A DNA stretch of 64,000 nt from Astropecten irregularis (taxonomy: Eukaryota; Echinodermata; Asteroidea; Paxillosida; Astropectinidae), in the NCBI GenBank assembly GCA_963971285.1, contig OZ020262.1:10980745-11044744 (forward strand), written 5' to 3'. The notes below the pieces were generated by a model. The model was not told where the DNA came from and did not search any database. It worked only from the letters and a program-made list of their open reading frames with translations. Both the position numbers and the translations under genes were made by a program. Shown here in pieces: positions 1,099 through 60,500 of this stretch (positions within the stretch are counted from its first letter, which is position 1; the number at the start of each line of letters is the position of its first letter).

Positions 1099-4000
1099 GA
1101 TGTGGCCATCTACTGCATAGATTATGATGTAGTGAACATTAATGCCAAGGACAATGCTGGGTACACGCCCTTACATGAATGCTGCGTCCACGGGCGTCTC
1201 AGGGTCGCCCTTCATCTTTTGCAGCATGGGGCTGACGTCAATGCCAGCGCGTCTGACGGCACGCGGTAAGTACGCAGTACGCATTATGAGTCCAAAGGTA
1301 TACCATTCTGTTCGTACATCATTGAGGGCGCTTCAGATAGTTTGTTCGATTGATTGATTAATTGATTGATTGATGTAAAAAAAACCATAGAGTTAAAGTC
1401 CCTCTTGGAACCAATCCAAGCAACAAAAGCAAGTGACGTCACTTACAGAACTAGTATATGCTCGCACCACAGTAAACTGCCTGGCGTTCTGCATGTGATG
1501 ACGTAAGGAAGGCTTTTCGTCGCGTAAAGTGTGCTAAATTATGTGCCTTAAATACCTCCGTTTTCTATATACAATATTTTTTAGCACAAACAATGATATT
1601 TTAAAAATCTATTCCACTTAATGTCAGAAATGGAAAAGAAAATCGGCCATGTTTGTGGTATGACATTGTCATCACCGCACTTTTTGATTTGCACCGGCCA
1701 TTTTATCGGGGTTTTTCTTTTTTCGACCGTCTCAGGCCCATTCACGACGCCGTGGATAACAACTGGTTGGCCCTGGTTCGTCTCCTTCTGATGTACGGTG
1801 CTGACCCGCTGATTGCCACTTACTCCGGAAGATCGACCATCACGTTAGCCCGGACAACGGCCATGAAAACTTTCATCATCGGTGAGTAAGCTATATGCCT
1901 AGGCCTAGGCCGTTTGTGCTTTGGACTGCCATCGTGTATGTTGGTTGGGCCTGGCCATCTTAAAGTAAGAGGTCATTTAATGACCAAATTCTGACAAGTC
2001 TAAAGGATTACCGTAAATGTTACATGCAGGCTGTCAGCTGACCAGACGTAGGCCGAAAATAACCTCGGCTTGTAGTATTCTTACCAACATTGAGAAAAAT
2101 AAGACTTGAAGCTATGCTGGAAGTACTAAAAGAAGGCAGGTTTGCGGTGACAATCTCTTCTGAGAGAGTGTATGGTTCTGAGAAGAACCATTGGTATATC
2201 TCGAAGTTCCGAACAGTGTGCTATCTCCATCCTCAGGAGAGTGACACTGAGAAAGCACCAGTGGTATTTGCCACTTTTTTCTTTCAAAGTTTTCCATCCC
2301 GATCAACCCATCAGCAAAACAACAACTTTTCTGTCTTTGTTTTTTTGGCATCAGGATACCTGAATGACGTGAACGGGAACTGGGAACGCGACGACGATGA
2401 TCCGTACCAGAGCAACCTGGATCTATGCTGGCACCTTGCCGGCACGCATTCCTTCGGTGAGTCCACTCTTTGATGTTATCAATCCTCTGTTTCTTCCAAG
2501 CAGCTCTGTTTTGAGCTAGACGCTTGGCTTGGACTATAAGCTCATTCCTGTCCACTCTTTGATGTTATCAATCCACTGTTTCTTCCAAGCAGCTCTGTTT
2601 TGAGGTAGATGCTTGGCTTGCACTAAAATCAATCCTGTTCACTCTTTGATGTTATCAATTCACTGTTTCTTCCAAGCAGCTCTGTTTTGAGCTAGACGCT
2701 TGGCCTGCACTAAGCTCATTCTTGTCCACTCTTTGATGTTATCAATCCACTGTTTCTTCCAAGCAGCTCTGTTTTGAGCTAGACGCTTGGCTTGGACTAA
2801 GCTCATTCCTGTCCACTCTTTGATGTTATCAATTCACTGTTTCTTCCAAGCGGCTCTGTTTTGAGCTAGACGCCTGGCTTGGACTAAGCTCATTCCTGTC
2901 CACTCTTTGATGTTAACAATCCACTGTTTCTTCCAAGCGGCTCTGTTTTGAGCTAGACGCCTGGCTTGGACTAAGCTCATTCCTGTCCACTCTTTGATGT
3001 TATCAATCCACTGTTTCTTCCAAGCAGCTCTGTTTTGAGCTAGACGCTTGGCTTGCACTAAGCTCATTCCTGTCCACTCTTTGATGTTATCAATCCACTG
3101 TTTCTTCCAAGCAGCTCTGTTTTGAGCTAGACGCTTGGCTTGGACTAAGCTCATTCCTGTCCACTCTTTGATGTTATCAATCCACTGTTTCTTCCAAGCA
3201 GCTCTGTTTTGAGCTAGACGCTTGGCCTGCACTAAGCTCATTCCTGTCCACTCTTTGATGTTATCAATCCACTGTTTCTTCCAAGCAGCTCTGTTTTGAG
3301 CTAGACGCTTGGCCTGCACTAAGCTCATTCCTGTCCACTCTTTGATGTTATCAATCCACTGTTTCTTCCAAGCAGCTCTGTTTTGAGCTAGACGCTTGGC
3401 CTGCACTAAGCTCATTCCTGTCCACTCTTTGATGTTATCAATTCACTGTTTCTTCCAAGCAGCTCTGTTTTGAGCTAGACGCTTGGCCTGCACTAAGCTC
3501 ATTCCTGTCCACTCTTTGATGTGACCAATCCACTGTTTCTTCCAAGCAGCTCTGTTTTGAGCTAGACGCTTGGCCTGCACTAAGCTCATTCCTGTCCACT
3601 CTTTGATGTGACCAATCCACTGTTTCTTCAGACGTCCTTTCTCCCCTTCCCTACAAACATGGCTCCCTATTAACCGGAACATAGAGTAAATCACGATTGA
3701 AATGTATACAATGAAGCAAGTCCATGCATTGATTGGTAATTCGGTTTGGAAGTTGTCTTGACGTGGTACCTGTTTGTCTTTCTCGTAGATGGCAATGACT
3801 TGCCCGTGGCTGACATCTTCCAAGACATCCCGGAGGAAAAGATCGATCACACGGGTGAATTTCTCGTGGAACTCAGCGAGACGCCGCTACTGAACAGCTA
3901 CAACATCAGACTTCCAAAAGACAAAAGGTACGTAGGCCTACAATCTTCTAGTTATATCAAGGAGTTCAAAGTTTTGGGGTGTTTTTTTTTCAGGCCAATA

Positions 4001-8739: not shown

Positions 8740-47812
<39,073 letters not shown>

Positions 47813-49638: not shown

Positions 49639-50725
49639 CTAGTGTCGACGACGGCGCTTTCTGTCTCCGGGTCCAGCCCGTCTCCTTTTGCTCCGTCCCC
49701 CGTGCCCTCCACCGCGATGCCCATGGGTCCTACCACCGGGACCGCCACGGGGTGTGTGCCCACCGGGACCACCACCACCACCACCGTGACCGTGTCGCGG
49801 CGTGTGCCTCCCCGGTGACTTGTCCCCGAACCACGCGCTCTGCCACACCAGCCAATCGTAGAACCAGCGGTACTGCTCGTAGTTTTTCCCGCCGGAGATG
49901 AAGAGTTCCAAGCCCCGTAAGATGTAGTTCTCTTTCTTGATGTCGTCATGGGAAGGATCGGCGATGACGTCGTAAATGTCACGGAGTTCCTCGGGCTGGA
50001 AAATGAGAAGGAATCGGTGAAAAATAGGAATGAGTAATTAATATCAGGCTGTGATAAGCTATCAATAAGCTGGCATCCAACAGGGACCAACCGCTCTTAA
50101 AAGTAGCTTCATAAAAGAAATGCAGATTCATGAGCAAATGAAAAGAGACAGCAACAGTCATCTGTGAAATTTCCAGTCCCACACGGTACCTACTTCTTGA
50201 GAAAACAGTGAAAACGCTAACAGTATTTTAAAATCTTTACACGGGAGTTTTGATCCCTGAGATCAAAACTGTATGTTTTGGGGGTCTTTGGTTTTACTCT
50301 TTTCTGAATAAATACGGCATTTCACACAGAAACTAGAGCAAATCCTTAAAGTTGCTGTTTCCCAGTCGGGTGAAGACTACACCACAAGCTGAACTTGGGT
50401 ACATCAATGGGCACAGCCATGAAATCAGGTGCAAGACTTACACTTCAAATAAAAAAGGGTCACTAAATAGTTCGTTTTTTTTTTTAATTTGCGTTGTGTT
50501 TTTGTGGTTACATTTCTCATGATAAACGGAATACAAAGTCATAAAGTAGTATAAGGCCTAATGAGCTAGCATTATTAAACTCACCAGATGGGGCACAAGG
50601 TTGATGATTTCATACTCTGGGACTTCCTCTCGCGACCCAGACGGCGACGAGGCCCCCGTAAGACACACCACCGAGGCGATGAGGAGAAGCCCCGGTACGA
50701 CCATCAGCAGGCCGGTGCTCTTCAT
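49639..50725 (-). CDS. Secreted protein with aromatic segment and Gly/His/Arg-rich tail, unknown family
   Basis: Two - strand exons, 50725-50585 and 49995-49639, join in phase 0 to give 165 residues. The chosen start (MKSTGLLMVV) opens directly into a signal peptide of about 25 residues. An upstream in-frame Met at 50761 would put twelve charged residues before it and is less likely. After the signal peptide come an acidic/helical region (PEYEIINL, PEELRDIYDV, DDIKKENYILRGLELF; about 32-82) and a Trp/Tyr-rich stretch (86-104). A Gly/His/Pro/Arg tail follows (about 108-150), with basic clusters SKRRR and RKRRRRH at the C-terminus. No cysteines follow the signal peptide. A TATA box (50871-50880) supports the start. 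It could be an antimicrobial, matrix or metal-binding protein, or a precursor cut at the basic clusters; nothing here decides. I do not recognise the family. Confidence 0.75.
50108..50330. mobile_element. MITE family 1, copy 5 (fragment)
   Basis: TCATAAAAGAAATGCAGATT, TCATCTGTGAAATTTCCAGT and CTGAATAAATACGGCATTTC match the family inside. Both terminal repeats are lost. It lies in the intron of the - strand secreted gene. Confidence 0.7.
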
Positions 50726-50870: not shown

Positions 50871-50880
50871 TTATATACAC
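50871..50880 (-). promoter_or_regulatory. TATA box of the - strand secreted gene
   Basis: The - strand reads GTGTATATAAGAC, about 150 bp before the chosen start codon at 50725. Confidence 0.65.
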
Positions 50881-52911: not shown

Positions 52912-52919
52912 TATAAATA
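52912..52919 (+). promoter_or_regulatory. TATA box of the exon-repeat secreted gene
   Basis: TATAAATA on the + strand, 225 bp before the ATG at 53137. The 52801-53076 open frame overlaps this promoter and 5' leader. Confidence 0.6.
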
Positions 52920-53136: not shown

Positions 53137-56100
53137 ATGAGCGCCAAAATCCTTCTCCCTGTCGTCTGCATTTTCCTGGCCGTGGTCATAGTGACTGGAG
53201 GTTGCATGATGTTCTTCACAGATCTTTTCGGCTGGGATTTCGGGAATAAAGAAAATGGCGACACAGTGAACGCCACCGAAAGCTCGTCATCAACGCCAGA
53301 CTACGAAGACGGCGAGATGTCTTCAGAATCTGTCACGGTAAGCGAGTTTTTATACATTCATCTCAAATTATTATCTTGTATTATTTCTGAGAGATGTATC
53401 TCTGTAAAATTCCTGGTTAAAAGGGTTTTGTTTTTCCTGTATTAAGTCCGCTATGCGATGGAGTTTAAAGGTAATATCATACTTCGGTTTTTGTCAAAGA
53501 AATACAGATTCATGGCCAAAAATAGCAAGGAACATACACAGTCATCTGTAAATATTTCAGTCCCACACGGTGCCCACTTTTTGAGAAAACAGTAAAAAAA
53601 ATGCCACAGTATTTCTTACGTCTTTCCCTTTTATTTTCGATCTTTAAAAAATCAAAAATAATGTTGGTCACTTGTGTTACTCTTTTCTGAATAAATACAG
53701 CATTTTAGGCGGAAAAATGTTAACGGTATGTTTCTACCACCATCATCTTTATACCTTGTAAGTTATAGGTAAATCTGTGAGATTTCTTTTTTGGTATGCT
53801 ACCAAAGTATGATAGTACCTTTAAGTGATGTTAATTGTTCATATAGACTGACTGGATATTTCATTGCACTAAATTGATAGTGGCAAGTCGCTTTGTAAGA
53901 TCCACAATTAAAATCACCACTGCAATAAAATGGGGCGGACAAACATTTTCTTGAGTTTTTTTTTTAATTCCTTTGGGTAGCAATCTTCCTGCACGTGTGT
54001 ACAGAGAAATTCAACTGAAATGTTAATAAAAGTTCGAATTATAGATGAGCAATACGCTGCCTACGATTTTCAAGTCATTTTTGTCACTGAAACTGAAGCT
54101 CTGTTTTCTTTTGCAAGCCAGATAATTTACTTCCGAATCGCAGCCAAAAGCCTCTATTTTGACACCCGTAATTTTAGAATGGATTCACGAAATGGAGCCA
54201 GAGCTTTGAGAAAGGCCACTGTTAGCCTCTTCTTCTTCTTCTTCCCGTTAAAAAAGTAAAAAAGAAAGTCTTTTTTTTTTTTATAGAAACAACTAATTTA
54301 AATTCCTCTTTTTATTGTATTTCCTCAGCTTATGCCGCCAGACGAAGACGAGAAAATAGACGAATTCTTCCCTGATCACATGACAGATGACCTCAAGTTG
54401 AAACTTATTCTAAAGGCCTTGGACATACTAAAGGTACACAGTCCTGAAATGCTTACAGACAGACAGACCGACAAACCTATAAATACCGGACGGACAGACA
54501 AACCTCACAGAAACTGAATATCATGTTGACCCAGTATTAACAACATGCAGGAGCAAAAATGACAAGTCGAAAGATTGATGCAAACAATGAGTTTCATAAT
54601 GATGTTCCATAGCCCTGACACAAATACACGACAAAGAAACAATATAAAGAGCAATACATTAAACTTAGAAGATTAGCATGGTTACCCTGCGTAAGGATGA
54701 CATGTTAAATCGTGAAGCGTTCCAATGTTTTTGTTCGAGGATTCCAAAATAAAGTTATCCTTTGAAAAGTAAAGTCATTCGAAATAAATTTTTATTTAAA
54801 ACTGATTTGAACTCAATAAACAATATATAAAAACTACGCTGTCTAGTTTTAAACTAATGTAACAAGTTTCTCGTCTTTCTTTTTTCGTCCTGGCAGACTT
54901 TGGATGTCGAGAACCCAGAATACGTCAATTCCCTGTTACCTAGCAACGGCGAGATGAGAGATGAACTCAAACTGCGACTGATCTTGAAGGCTATTTCGTT
55001 ATTGAGTGTAAGTTCTCACTTTTTGACTCTCCATCAAAAAAACACCAGAAGAAATCCAAAAGTTGTGTGTGTGTGTGTGTTTTTTTTTGAATTAATTACT
55101 TGTAGTTCACAGTTCCCATAATATCACTTTCTCCCTGTTTTAAACAATTTAAATAATGGCCCACGTATATTAATGTTGAAGGCCTACCGTAAAAGTTGTG
55201 TCAAAAATCAAGAATCATAAATAAATCCTTTTCTTTTCCGCAGGACAAACCATTGACGTCAGAATTCGCTGGTCACGTGGTTGCCGAGTTGGAGCTCACA
55301 CTGGTCTTGAAAGCTATTTACATTATCAAGGTACAGGAAATTCTACAATGAATTCCCATGAAGTAGATATAGTGCATAGACATAATCACCGACGAATATT
55401 GTTTCAGAATGATTATGCACGTATTCTGATTAGCTGTCACAAAGCTGTCATTCAGAAAATACATATACATTAAATTTGATTTACACAAACTTCACTATCC
55501 GTGCAAAATGAATTAGTCAATACAACTAAGACCAAGCTTTATGATACCAAACAGCTACAAACTTCCTCCAACAGAATACTAACAAGATAGACCTATACGT
55601 CATGGTTGGAGTTTTGGAGGGCCTGACGTTTTGATCCTTGTATGAGCTGGTTTTTCTTTAAAGGCCGCTGAACAAACCAATATAATTTTGATGATAAAAG
55701 ATTTAAACATTTTCTGTCTGTATAATTTTTTTAGGAAGTTCAAGAGGAGTTGGGAATTGATAACCTCGACGACCTCAAATTCAACCTCGTTCGCAAGGCT
55801 CTGTACATTCTGAAGGTAACTATAATATTAGTACATTGTTTCCGTTTCTGGTTTTGGTGATTTGAATAGACAACCAAAATCATGTGATTTGCGTCGTAAA
55901 ATAACTTGTATTCTACATCGAGCTAATTTTAAGTGATGGACAATATTAAGATATTGTTCACAACTTTGCTATATATTATGGACCCTCTATTTAGGCAAAT
56001 TTGATTTAGAAATGGTAAACTTACATTATACTATCTGTTTGCTATATTGTGCTCATTATTTTCCTTATATAGGTATACCGTGGAGATTTCGTGGACACCG

Positions 56101-56480
56101 TTTTCAAGACCAAGAACAGATATCACCTTAAACTGAAACTGACTCTACTATACCTCTCGCTGTCCAAGACAACCAAGACCCCGTCCAGTCATGATCATGA
56201 TCATGATCACCATCATCGTCACGCCCGTGACGTCATGGACAACTTCTTGCCAATCAGCGGAGACGAGGTGGAGGGCGACAGCCAATCAAATCCCACCGTG
56301 CGCGTGATAATCGACAACGGAGGTTTGGCAGCCGAAGCAGACGAGACGACACCAAAAGGGCGGGAAAATCTCCGACCTGAGGAAAAAGTGGTCGGATTTT
56401 TCAAGTGGCTGAAACGGTTGCACAAAAATGGGCATCAAAGTCAAACTGTTGATAATAAACAGAGTTTACATTCCTTGTAA
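53137..56480 (+). CDS. Secreted or membrane-anchored protein with five exon-encoded helical repeats, unknown family
   Basis: Six exons, all phase 0: 53137-53337, 54329-54433, 54897-55007, 55244-55330, 55735-55815, 56073-56480 (990 nt, 330 codons with the stop; 329 residues). Exon 1 encodes a hydrophobic leader (ILLPVVCIFLAVVIVTGG), either signal peptide or anchor, and a Ser/acidic segment with an N-glycosylation site (NATE). Exons 2-5 and the start of exon 6 each encode one repeat. The repeats end in TDDLKLKLILKALDILK, RDELKLRLILKAISLL, VAELELTLVLKAIYIIK, LDDLKFNLVRKALYILK and RYHLKLKLTLLYLSLSK, each predicted as an amphipathic helix. Exons 2 and 3 also carry an acidic (F/L)(F/L)P lead-in. 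Exon 6 adds a His/Asp cluster (HDHDHDHHHRH) and a basic, amphipathic C-terminal segment (VVGFFKWLKRLHK). I do not recognise the family. The exon structure and consistent frame make it a real gene. Confidence 0.82.
53464..53825. mobile_element. MITE family 1, copy 7 (inverted, full length)
   Basis: TTTAAAGGTAATATCATACT at the left, CCAAAGTATGATAGTACCTT at the right. It lies in intron 1 of the exon-repeat gene. Confidence 0.85.
54080..54220. mobile_element. MITE family 4 fragment
   Basis: GAAGCTCTGTTTTC, CGCAGCCAAAAGCCTCTATT and GGATTCACGAAATGGAGCCA match the reverse of the family. It is about 100 bp upstream of exon 2 of the exon-repeat gene. Confidence 0.7.
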
Positions 56481-56897: not shown

Positions 56898-56903
56898 AAT
56901 AAA
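56898..56903 (+). terminator. Candidate poly(A) signal of the exon-repeat gene
   Basis: AATAAA 418 bp after the stop codon at 56480. Confidence 0.5.
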
Positions 56904-57557
56904 ACTTTCCTTCAAAAGAAAAGGGTTTTCCCGCTAGGCTCTGAATTTTGTTTGATAATTGTTTGTTTGTTGTTTTAGTTTGTTTTGTTGAGACCCTATG
57001 TATATAGGACTCGCACCTCAAATCTTATCTTGAAGTGGGCTCATTTTGCAAAAGGAAAATGGCTTAAAACCTGAACTTTAACTAAAAGATATTTCAACAT
57101 TTGTGTTGGGATTGGCCCGTCGATCGTACCTTACTGATAACATTAATATCTACTGTTTTTCCATTATAGACGGTCTTTGCACTATTTTGTGGGCTTATCT
57201 TTTGGGGACTCAAAGTTTGTTTAATAAAAACAACCACTTTTATGCAAACAATTTAAACTCAGTGTAACTTGATCATATTTGCATAGAGCTAGGAACAGAT
57301 GGTAATTTTGTTATTAAAATATTACAGGGGCTAAAAATAAACCACAATGAATGTCAAAGGTCAATAGGAAATGTTTAATTCCTACACCGTAGTCTGGTTA
57401 ACGCCTTTTTGTGATGTGTTACGACAAGGAGCTGGGCAGCGCCGCCGAGGCGGTAACGCGACCTGTCAGAATCATGTGAGCGATTGTTATGGTTGACAAA
57501 CCTTGCGAAACGGAGCACTTTCTCTGTCACAAACGGTGAGTTTTTCTACCTGACAAG
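56904..57557. other. Intergenic DNA and presumed PhyH-gene promoter
   Basis: AT-rich to about 57410, then a short GC-richer, TATA-less stretch (CAGCGCCGCCGAGGCGGTAA at 57437-57456) containing CATGTG. This is the most likely promoter of the downstream enzyme. Confidence 0.4.
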
Positions 57558-60500
57558 ATGCCAGAGCCTCCGAAAGCCAAGAGACAGAAGACGGGCGAGG
57601 GACTCGTGTCAACGTGGCCCAAGTTTTCAGAGAGATTGGTGGAGAGTGAGACGAAAGGCCTGTTCAAAGACAAGGGATACATCAGGGTAATTTGTGATTT
57701 GTTTTGCATTACGTTGAATTGCATCTATTTCGTGACAAAATGGCAATTAGATTATACATATTTCATGTTTGTTGTAAATAGGTTTATTTTTCCTTAATAC
57801 ATAACATTTTAACAATGTCTTTTAGTAAATTTCACGGAAAGATTCAAAGGAAAAAGAGAGGAAATGCTTACAAAGAATGTTTTTGTTATTTGTTAAGTTG
57901 CTAAAAAGTAAGTAGGGGGCCTAACAGTTAGGCCCCCGGCCCTAGGCCTATAATTTTTAGGCCTAACGTTGGGCCACAATGTTCAATGGCTCACGATGTT
58001 GGCTGAATTTAGAAAGATAGTGTCGTTTCAGCTTCAGACTGAGCCTTTGTTAAACTGATGAAGACGCTTGTGTGGTCTCAATTTTTATCTGTAAGCCATC
58101 GATCACTTTGGCTTTATAATTATTTTCCTAGAACTATGCCTACTATATACCACTAGTAACAGTCAGTATTTAATGTTTTTGTTATTGGCAAAGGAATGAT
58201 GGGAGACTATATTACCCTTGGACAAGTTACTTGTCAGACAGTGTCAGTTAAAATGCAAATGTGGTGTCGTACTTATGATGTTAACAAAGTAAACCTATAT
58301 CACAAACTAAGTGTGAGTCCAAAATAAAAATAAGTTACCAGCTTGAAATGGGGGATCTACATTTTTCGTCAAATGTAGGCGGATGCCTTTATAAGAGAGG
58401 ATGAACTGAGCACGATTAAAAGTGAACTCCAGAGGTATGAGAAGGATGTGGTTCCAGACCTACCTCCTAAGATGGCATTCTACGAGGAGAAAGGGAAGAA
58501 GGACTCCATCATCCGTCTAGAGAGGATGTTGGACTACGACGCTTTCTTCAAGGTGAGTCCGATCACGGCTTCAGGGCTTTGTCTTCCTCTCTTCTTTCTG
58601 TCATATGAAGAGTGTTTCTTCAAAAGTTAGGATGCCAGAGAGTATGTTTTTTTTAATGAACTGACCTTTTGCCCTTTGACCTAGGATCTTGGGGAGTCGC
58701 CTGCCTTCAACGGACTGGCCGACTTGCTGCTGGAGGAAGAGTGCATCCCCAAAAACGTGCAATACTTCTCTAAGCCTCCCGGTGCCAAATGCACTCCGGC
58801 TCACCAAGATGGTAAATACTTCATGCACGACAGAGGTAAGTAGTGACTGTGACCTCTCTAGAGCCCTAGAGGTAGGGGAAATCTTGATTTCATCTTTGCA
58901 GAGCATCATGACACTGCCGGTATTTGCAGGATTCACATGGAGAGGTTCTCCCTTACATCAAGACGTGGTTATCAGTAGCCGAGTGGTCTGATTCTTCCAA
59001 CCCATGGACCATTTCACAGATTGTTCATCCGACCTCAGAGAGCTTGGAGATTGCATTTTTGAGCCAAGATTCCTTCACAATACTTACCTCTCTCCACCCA
59101 AGAGAGTTTTAGGAGCTCCCTTGCATCAAGACGTGGTTCTCCGTAGCCTGCCAAGCGGCCTGATGCATCCAACTCATTCTCTTGTGGACCATTTCACAGA
59201 TTGTCTGTCGGAGTTCAACCACTGAGGTCTTGGTCCTTGCATCTGTGAGCCAAGGCATTCTGTCACTGCTTACTTCTATCCCATCCAGAAAATCTAAATA
59301 AGTACCTTATAAAGGTAGAGGTGGTTGTGTGTCTGATTTGCGTTTGTGTGCTCATGAAGCAGCCAGGGTTTTGTTCTTCCCTATTTCAGTTCAACCCAGA
59401 GACCAGGGTAACATTGTGAAGTGCATTAAGATTTCCCGTTGTTAAGAAGTGCATTATAATGTTACCCACATAGGCACTTTGAGGTTTTTTTAGGAGATAA
59501 TCAGGGCTCGAAATAGTGCTAGCCTGGTGTTCAATGTCTAGCAAAAACTGCTCCGGGCTAGCTAGACTCACTTCCTTGGTTGCCCAGTGGGCTAGTAAAA
59601 TGTTAAGAACCTACCTGTTAAGGTATGGATCAACGTACATATGTATGGGCTAGTAAAAATCTAAACGGGCTAGTAAAATCTGAAGTAAGCTGGCCTGATG
59701 GGCTAGCCAGGAAAAAAAAGGCCTGATAATCCTCATTTTGATGTCTCTAGGCATCACATTTTGGCTGGCCCTGGATGACGCCGATGCTGAAAATGGCTGC
59801 TTGTACTACGTCCCCAAGTCAGATAGGAAGGGGGAGCTGGAACACCGCAAGACGGAAGCCCTGGGCTTCAGCCAGGCCCTGGTGGAATACGAAGACTGGA
59901 TGAAGGAGACTGAGGAGGAGATGCCGGCCAAGAAAGGTAAGTGGGTCACCTCAGAGGTTACAGGGTCATTTGGCAGGGTCATAAGGTCATTGCCAATGTG
60001 ATGTGATCTTTCAAAATGAGTCTTAAGATTCATCTTACTATTCAGGTTTTTATTCTGATAGCAAAGTGATATCCTTTGGGGTTTCTTCTTCTTCATCTTC
60101 TTCTTTGGTCGCCGTCAATACGGACGATTGGCTACCATCTGGACGCATCTCCTTATCTCCTTCTATAAAAGCAGTTCTGTTAAAAAAAAAATTCCCAAAG
60201 ATTTGTTGTGCACCAACTTCTTAGTGGCCTGTTTCTCATAACCAGCTTTTGCGTCTTATGACTTATTCCGCCCGGTTGCTTCATGCCTAATCTTACTCCG
60301 GTCTCTTCTCCATTTGTATAGGGACTCTACTGGGGCACCATGCCTACATGATCCACCGAGCCGGAGAGAACAAGTAAGTATTGCAGAAGTTGAATACAGC
60401 ACTTGCAGCTTGTGTTGCTTGATAGTAGGTTTGTGGAAGCTTCCACAAGCGATCTCTTTAGAGCCAGTTGGACTTGGAAGAGTTTTGAGTTAAAGTAGAG

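Follow-up and report, generated by a model that had tools for sequence, protein, structure and literature searches.

The gene at positions 53137-56480 (+) of a 64,000-nucleotide stretch of Astropecten irregularis DNA (the window) is very probably, as regards its identity and architecture, a member of a real, ordered and selected family of three genes, here called A (in the window), B and C. We give a probability of roughly 40% to the overall reading that the family encodes secretory-pathway proteins whose basic tail would bind negatively charged surfaces, probably in a defence or barrier role. The family is new to the libraries searched (Pfam, PDB and NCBIfam), and the underlying process, exon duplication within a gene for a secreted protein, is known.

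Exon plan of gene A

The window lies within contig C27 of a genome of 475.7 Mb in 168 contigs. An earlier note on this DNA had proposed six phase-0 exons at 53137-56480, and this was borne out: gene A encodes 330 aa in exons of 201, 105, 111, 87, 81 and 408 nt (stop included in the last), each divisible by 3, separated by introns of 991, 463, 236, 404 and 257 nt, all five of them GT-AG and phase 0. All the exons are on the forward strand. Exon 1 (53137..53337) encodes a hydrophobic leader (residues ~1-22) followed by an acidic S/T-rich stretch, and holds N45, the sole N-glycosylation sequon of the protein. Repeats 1 to 4 are carried by exon 2 (54329..54433), exon 3 (54897..55007), exon 4 (55244..55330) and exon 5 (55735..55815), respectively, and exon 6 (56073..56480) is not a pure repeat unit, as repeat 5 shares it with the linker, the basic tail and the stop. 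Upstream, a TATA-box-like TATAAATA (52912..52919, +) stands 225 nt 5' of the ATG, and an AATAAA polyadenylation-like signal (56898..56903, +) follows about 0.4 kb 3' of the stop; both are consensus matches only. TATA-like words were also present in paralogs B and C, 155 and 175 nt 5' of their ATGs.

The exons are richer in G+C (0.42-0.50) than the introns (0.29-0.35), and a codon score with a training set of only 477 codons told the exons of gene A from its introns. With the same 477 training codons, the score did not tell the gene A frame from the next one (joined values of -0.004 and -0.04, respectively). Intron 1 harbors a MITE-like element (53465..53824, +) with 24-nt inverted ends, outside the protein-coding part. 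Its end motif was also found at 101, 446, 36081, 36421, 41743 and 47609 in the window, as well as on contig C1, and TTAAAGGTARTATCATA, the 17-nt start of that end, occurs seven times in the window and four times in 50 kb of C1.

Paralogs B and C share the exon plan

When exon 2 of gene A was used as query against the genome, it matched itself and two exons on C1 (68% and 62% identical) located 2.7 kb apart on opposite strands. A profile of the five gene A repeats, run on the 50 kb around these exons, yielded ten sites that passed the inclusion threshold, five in each gene. The corresponding gene models, which were drawn by eye from the sequence without transcripts, are paralog B (C1:21776593-21779838, -; 386 aa) and paralog C (C1:21781426-21785019, +; 294 aa), arranged head to head and with six exons each. 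Over the three genes, 18 of 18 exons are divisible by 3, 15 of 15 introns are GT-AG and the phase-0 plan is common to all, the last splice acceptor of the B model (CATTAAAG) being weak-looking. A genome search with the whole of C as query, at E values up to 10, gave at least 15 matches, the 15 obtained being all within gene A (3), gene B (6) and gene C (6), and no fourth copy of the family. For exon 1 (first 54 codons) and exon 6 of gene A, only self-matches were obtained at E 0.001.

Two other features of paralog C were noted. The end of its exon 1, together with the splice donor, is tandemly duplicated, with a unit of about 77 nt and two donors (L007 6556-6708; by eye), and ARAGORN placed a tRNA-Thr (GGT) in its intron 2 (L007 7318-7392), which could be either a gene or a repeat of tRNA origin.

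Five homologous repeats and their predicted fold

According to the earlier note, five of the exons each carry one diverged repeat, and alignment and shuffling agree. The summed pairwise score of the five gene A repeats was 382, while the maximum was 232 in 2000 composition shuffles (0/2000) and 256 in 2000 shuffles that kept the hydrophobic pattern (0/2000). Within the 64-kb window, exactly five sites, all of gene A, passed the HMMER inclusion threshold with the five-repeat profile, and there was no sixth above it (next best E 0.63). The units are 27-38 residues long, and the core common to proteins A, B and C reads L-K-L-x-L-I-L-K-A-L/I-x-I-L.

AlphaFold2, given isolated repeat 1 and the remaining four as alignment, placed helices at 6-13 and 16-34, with pLDDT reaching 93 and 91 in the final two blocks, a mean of 76, a pTM of 0.38 and values of 50-70 for 18 of the 35 residues. 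This model of a single isolated repeat supports the prediction that in each unit a short helix leads through a turn into a long helix rich in Leu and Ile. The repeats had been described as amphipathic helices; the helix is upheld by this model, but the amphipathic part is not, as the hydrophobic periodicity of the gene A repeats had maxima near 120 and 180 degrees rather than 100. Likewise, the averaged core of 15 repeats displayed moments of 0.42 at 120 and 0.44 at 180 degrees, and only 0.20 at 100. In the aligned cores, the long helix is mainly hydrophobic with few charges. We infer that the modelled helix and the missing 100-degree periodicity could be reconciled if the helix, being mostly hydrophobic, were buried in a bundle.

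The size of the units and their predicted short plus long helix (again in the model of one isolated unit) recall TPR, HEAT and Armadillo proteins, which are alpha-alpha repeat solenoids. Unlike these, neither the repeats nor the full proteins A, B and C matched any such family in Pfam.

An exon array older than the three genes

Between genes, mean repeat identity was 59.5% for the same position (15 pairs) versus 42.6% for different positions (90 pairs), and the observed colinearity score was reached by the true order alone, that is, by one of 14400 arrangements. The exceptions were repeats 2 and 4 of A, which scored best against repeat 1 of B, repeat 4 doing so also against repeat 1 of C. Since the same five repeats stand in the same order in the three genes, the alignments indicate that the five-exon array was already in place when gene duplication gave rise to A, B and C. 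The growth by exon duplication postulated in the earlier note is supported by this ordered array common to the paralogs, and gene A displays what an exon-duplication repeat protein should: homologous repeats, one per symmetric exon, in an order shared by its paralogs.

Over exons 2-5, the pS/pN values were 0.82/0.30 for A-B (Fisher p 3.0e-18), 0.80/0.31 for A-C (p 1.4e-15) and 0.63/0.18 for B-C (p 2.8e-15), figures to be read with the caveat that comparisons with A approach saturation at synonymous sites and that protein-level alignments favour conserved residues. As judged from these codon comparisons, the repeats (exons 2-5) are shown to be under purifying selection, and this, together with the exon plan common to A, B and C, marks them as a protein-coding family. 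The leader exons diverge fast (dN 0.67-1.17). B and C are 99% identical in the initial 200 nt of exon 6, whereas their exons 2-5 are only 69-77% identical, a pattern that points to recent gene conversion.

A comparable case is that of Nasonia nasonin-2 and nasonin-6 which, according to PMC2853521, are secreted proteins lengthened by duplication of a one-unit exon, with no processing signals between units. According to the same source, the nasonins differ from the present family in being defensin-like and in having phase-1 introns, while the units of A, B and C are cysteine-free and in phase 0.

Leader, linker and tail

Proteins A, B and C have a common layout consisting of a hydrophobic leader, an acidic lead-in, the five repeats, a post-repeat motif, an acidic linker and a basic tail, and their cysteines are confined to exon 1. 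In gene A, the hydrophobic leader, the HDHDHDHHHRH cluster and the basic tail reported by the earlier note are all present. The A leader reaches a Kyte-Doolittle value of 2.65 over 19 residues and, being long and hydrophobic, could possibly be an uncleaved membrane anchor. The leaders of B and C look classical by eye. On these grounds, entry into the secretory pathway is plausible for the three proteins, which are candidates for secretion.

Past the repeats, a conserved motif (56241..56276, +) has N252, F253, P255, D259, E260, E262 and G263 identical in the three proteins. The linker that follows carries a charge of -7 in A, -17 in B and -11 in C, and the basic C-terminal segment VVGFFKWLKRLHKNGHQS (56388..56441, +) includes an FKWLK conserved in A, B and C. 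The earlier note mentioned neither this conservation nor the paralogs, which are situated outside the window. Each of the three tails is positively charged (+3 in A, +6 in B and +11 in C). The amphipathicity that the earlier note ascribed to the tail of A holds for A and C, in which 31 and 33 of 2000 shuffles, respectively, were as good as the best 18-mer, but not for B, where the tail did no better than shuffles (1082/2000 as good).

Searches for known families

The earlier note had recognised no family for the repeats, and profile and sequence searches of Pfam and PDB, plus a search of NCBIfam with the window protein, likewise gave no credible match. No Pfam family was above the cut-off with the single proteins or the profiles (best E 0.25), nor was any NCBIfam family with the window protein (best E 0.82), and in PDB, searched with single proteins and profiles, the best E was 0.0094, to a designed protein, followed by 0.6. 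The designed toroids dTor_9x57R and dTor_3x57R (PDB 6xr1 and 6xr2) contain an LELALKALQIL resembling the LKLxLILKALxIL of the family. Both are artificial proteins, with E values of 0.0094 and 0.77, respectively; no single copy came near significance, and homology was rejected because neither was matched by the 14-repeat profile. MAGE-G1 and NSE3, found with the three-protein profile against PDB at E 0.67 and 1.3, were taken as chance.

Six repeat or tail strings had no occurrence in 5.39 million open-access papers. Among the matches listed for sea star His-rich secreted proteins, no title or opening of an abstract described the family, and the same held for the matches on symmetric-exon duplication and on starfish antimicrobial precursors. 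It may already stand in a sea star annotation as an "uncharacterized protein".

Genomic surroundings

Several observations on the neighbouring DNA and on other contigs were made along with this analysis. A 5-HT2-like receptor gene (window 23118-25124, -), with best PDB matches to 5-HT2B, lies antisense between exons of a PSMD1/RPN2-like proteasome subunit gene (+) recognised by Pfam PC_rep at 16.2 kb and RPN2_C at 46.5 kb. In the table coordinates of PMC3420870, in which the strand is not given, mouse Htr2b is also within the Psmd1 span. Nesting of the receptor gene may therefore be a conserved trait, common to echinoderm and mammal. Head to head with gene A there is a two-exon gene (window 49639-50725, -; exons 50585-50725 and 49639-49995 by eye) with a phase-0 intron and a TATATAA near 50871-50877. 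Its product seems to be secreted, rich in Gly and His, and Arg-rich at its end, and its two ORFs had no Pfam match. Directly downstream of gene A (57540-60001, +), one of four scanned ORFs (59699-60001) matches the PhyH (phytanoyl-CoA dioxygenase) domain. A tandem repeat at the peptide level at 2837-3442 (-) resembles multiplied retrotransposon coding sequence.

The mitochondrial contig C168 (16,335 nt) has a cox1 with 10 in-frame TGA codons. Under the echinoderm code and with genes named by eye, its order is cox1, nad4L, cox2, atp6, cox3, nad3, nad4, nad5, nad6 (reversed) and cob, nad1 and nad2 being reversed as well. The succession cox1-nad4L-cox2 is an echinoderm mitochondrial order, and a reversed nad1-nad2 block characterises the sea stars. 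By this gene order the DNA is almost certainly that of a sea star, a brittle star being a remote alternative. Gene orders of this kind are discussed in PMC5856267. Contig C131, the cox1 of which has no TGA codon and an open frame of 552 aa, is perhaps a bacterial contig in the assembly, and the cox1 fragment with seven TGA codons on contig C25 is probably nuclear mitochondrial DNA.

Proposed function and alternatives

Orphan secreted families are a large unknown of marine invertebrate immunity and secretions. For the proteins described here, we propose that the leader would direct them to the secretory pathway, that the five repeats would pack as one cysteine-free helical domain, and that a flexible acidic linker would tether the cationic tail, which could then bind negatively charged surfaces such as microbial or host membranes and glycans. 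The functional step itself, from this architecture to an extracellular surface-binding protein probably serving host defence or barrier, is tentative, and we hold it at clearly less than even odds; it is weakened by the B tail, which is not amphipathic, and by the A tail, which is only +3. Precursors such as cathelicidins and the echinoid centrocins combine an acidic pro-part with a cationic C-terminal peptide. The family resembles them in its leader, its acidic part, its Trp/Lys-rich basic C-terminus and the putative processing motifs between repeats and tail; it differs in that A, B and C lack a Pfam match to such families, have no cysteine after exon 1 and possess an ordered domain of five repeats.

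It is unlikely, although it is the alternative that we take most seriously, that these are structural, mucus or adhesive-matrix proteins in which the helical domain would self-associate, the S/T-rich linker would be O-glycosylated and the basic tail would cross-bridge acidic glycans. The leaders of secretory type would suit such proteins, as would the linker of B, where S+T make up 32% of 142 residues; however, this proportion falls to 19% of 54 residues in C and to 16% of 69 in A, so that a long S/T-rich linker is found in B only, there is no cysteine past exon 1, and the genes found are at least three rather than a large array.

Improbable too is a role in carrying lipid or another hydrophobic cargo, with the Leu/Ile-rich helices lining a cavity or wrapping lipid, as the helices of the exchangeable apolipoproteins do. 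The long helix, mainly hydrophobic, poor in charges, repeated and exon-coded, is consistent with this, but lipid-transfer families were unmatched in Pfam and PDB and the cores are devoid of the 100-degree periodicity expected of helices on a lipid surface.

We likewise consider it improbable that the proteins are precursors from which the C-terminal part or the tail would be freed as a basic peptide, with the repeats acting as pro-domain. Putative processing motifs do stand just past the repeats: RHAR at residues 244-247 of A (56217..56228, +), a match to the minimal R-x-x-R site, and in its place a KR at the end of repeat 5 in B (residue 215) and C (residue 207), all of them motif matches only. 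In addition, B and C have a KK (at 362 and 263, respectively) close to where the tail begins, and one-unit-per-exon genes of Nasonia are reported in PMC2853521 as exon-duplicated defence proteins. Against this, A has no KK before its tail, and the other dibasic pair that each protein has before the end of repeat 5 (RK 188 in A, KK 199 in B and KK 191 in C) falls within a repeat. The version in which each repeat would be a peptide is less likely still, and cutting into single repeats was rejected because the dibasic pairs are inside the repeats and none is between them.

A His-rich metal-binding protein is very unlikely. The His/Asp cluster HDHDHDHHHRH (56190..56222, +), one of the features with which the earlier note had found metal binding compatible, is present in gene A and missing from both paralogs, so that metal binding could at most be a speciality of A and was dropped as a family function. 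Finally, it is hardly credible that gene A is a chance run of open stretches or a decayed copy: the codon score, with its 477 training codons, is blind to frame as a non-gene would have it, but frames and splice sites are intact, two paralogs follow the same plan and purifying selection is strong, and pseudogene or chance was rejected by the repeat shuffles, the paralog colinearity and pS/pN.

Returning to the surface-binding proteins that we favour, their most specific form would be an undescribed family, restricted to echinoderms, of proteins that are secreted as effectors of immunity or barrier. Its helical-repeat domain would be new and free of cysteine, each unit being one exon, and the cationic FKWLK tail on its acidic tether would be the working end. 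Taken with all its parts this form is doubtful; if true, growth by exon duplication would be directly readable in the protein. The history of the family is unusually clear, with one repeat, one exon, one order and three genes. If present in other echinoderms, it would illustrate cleanly how a domain grows by exon duplication and would supply a candidate family of defence or barrier proteins.
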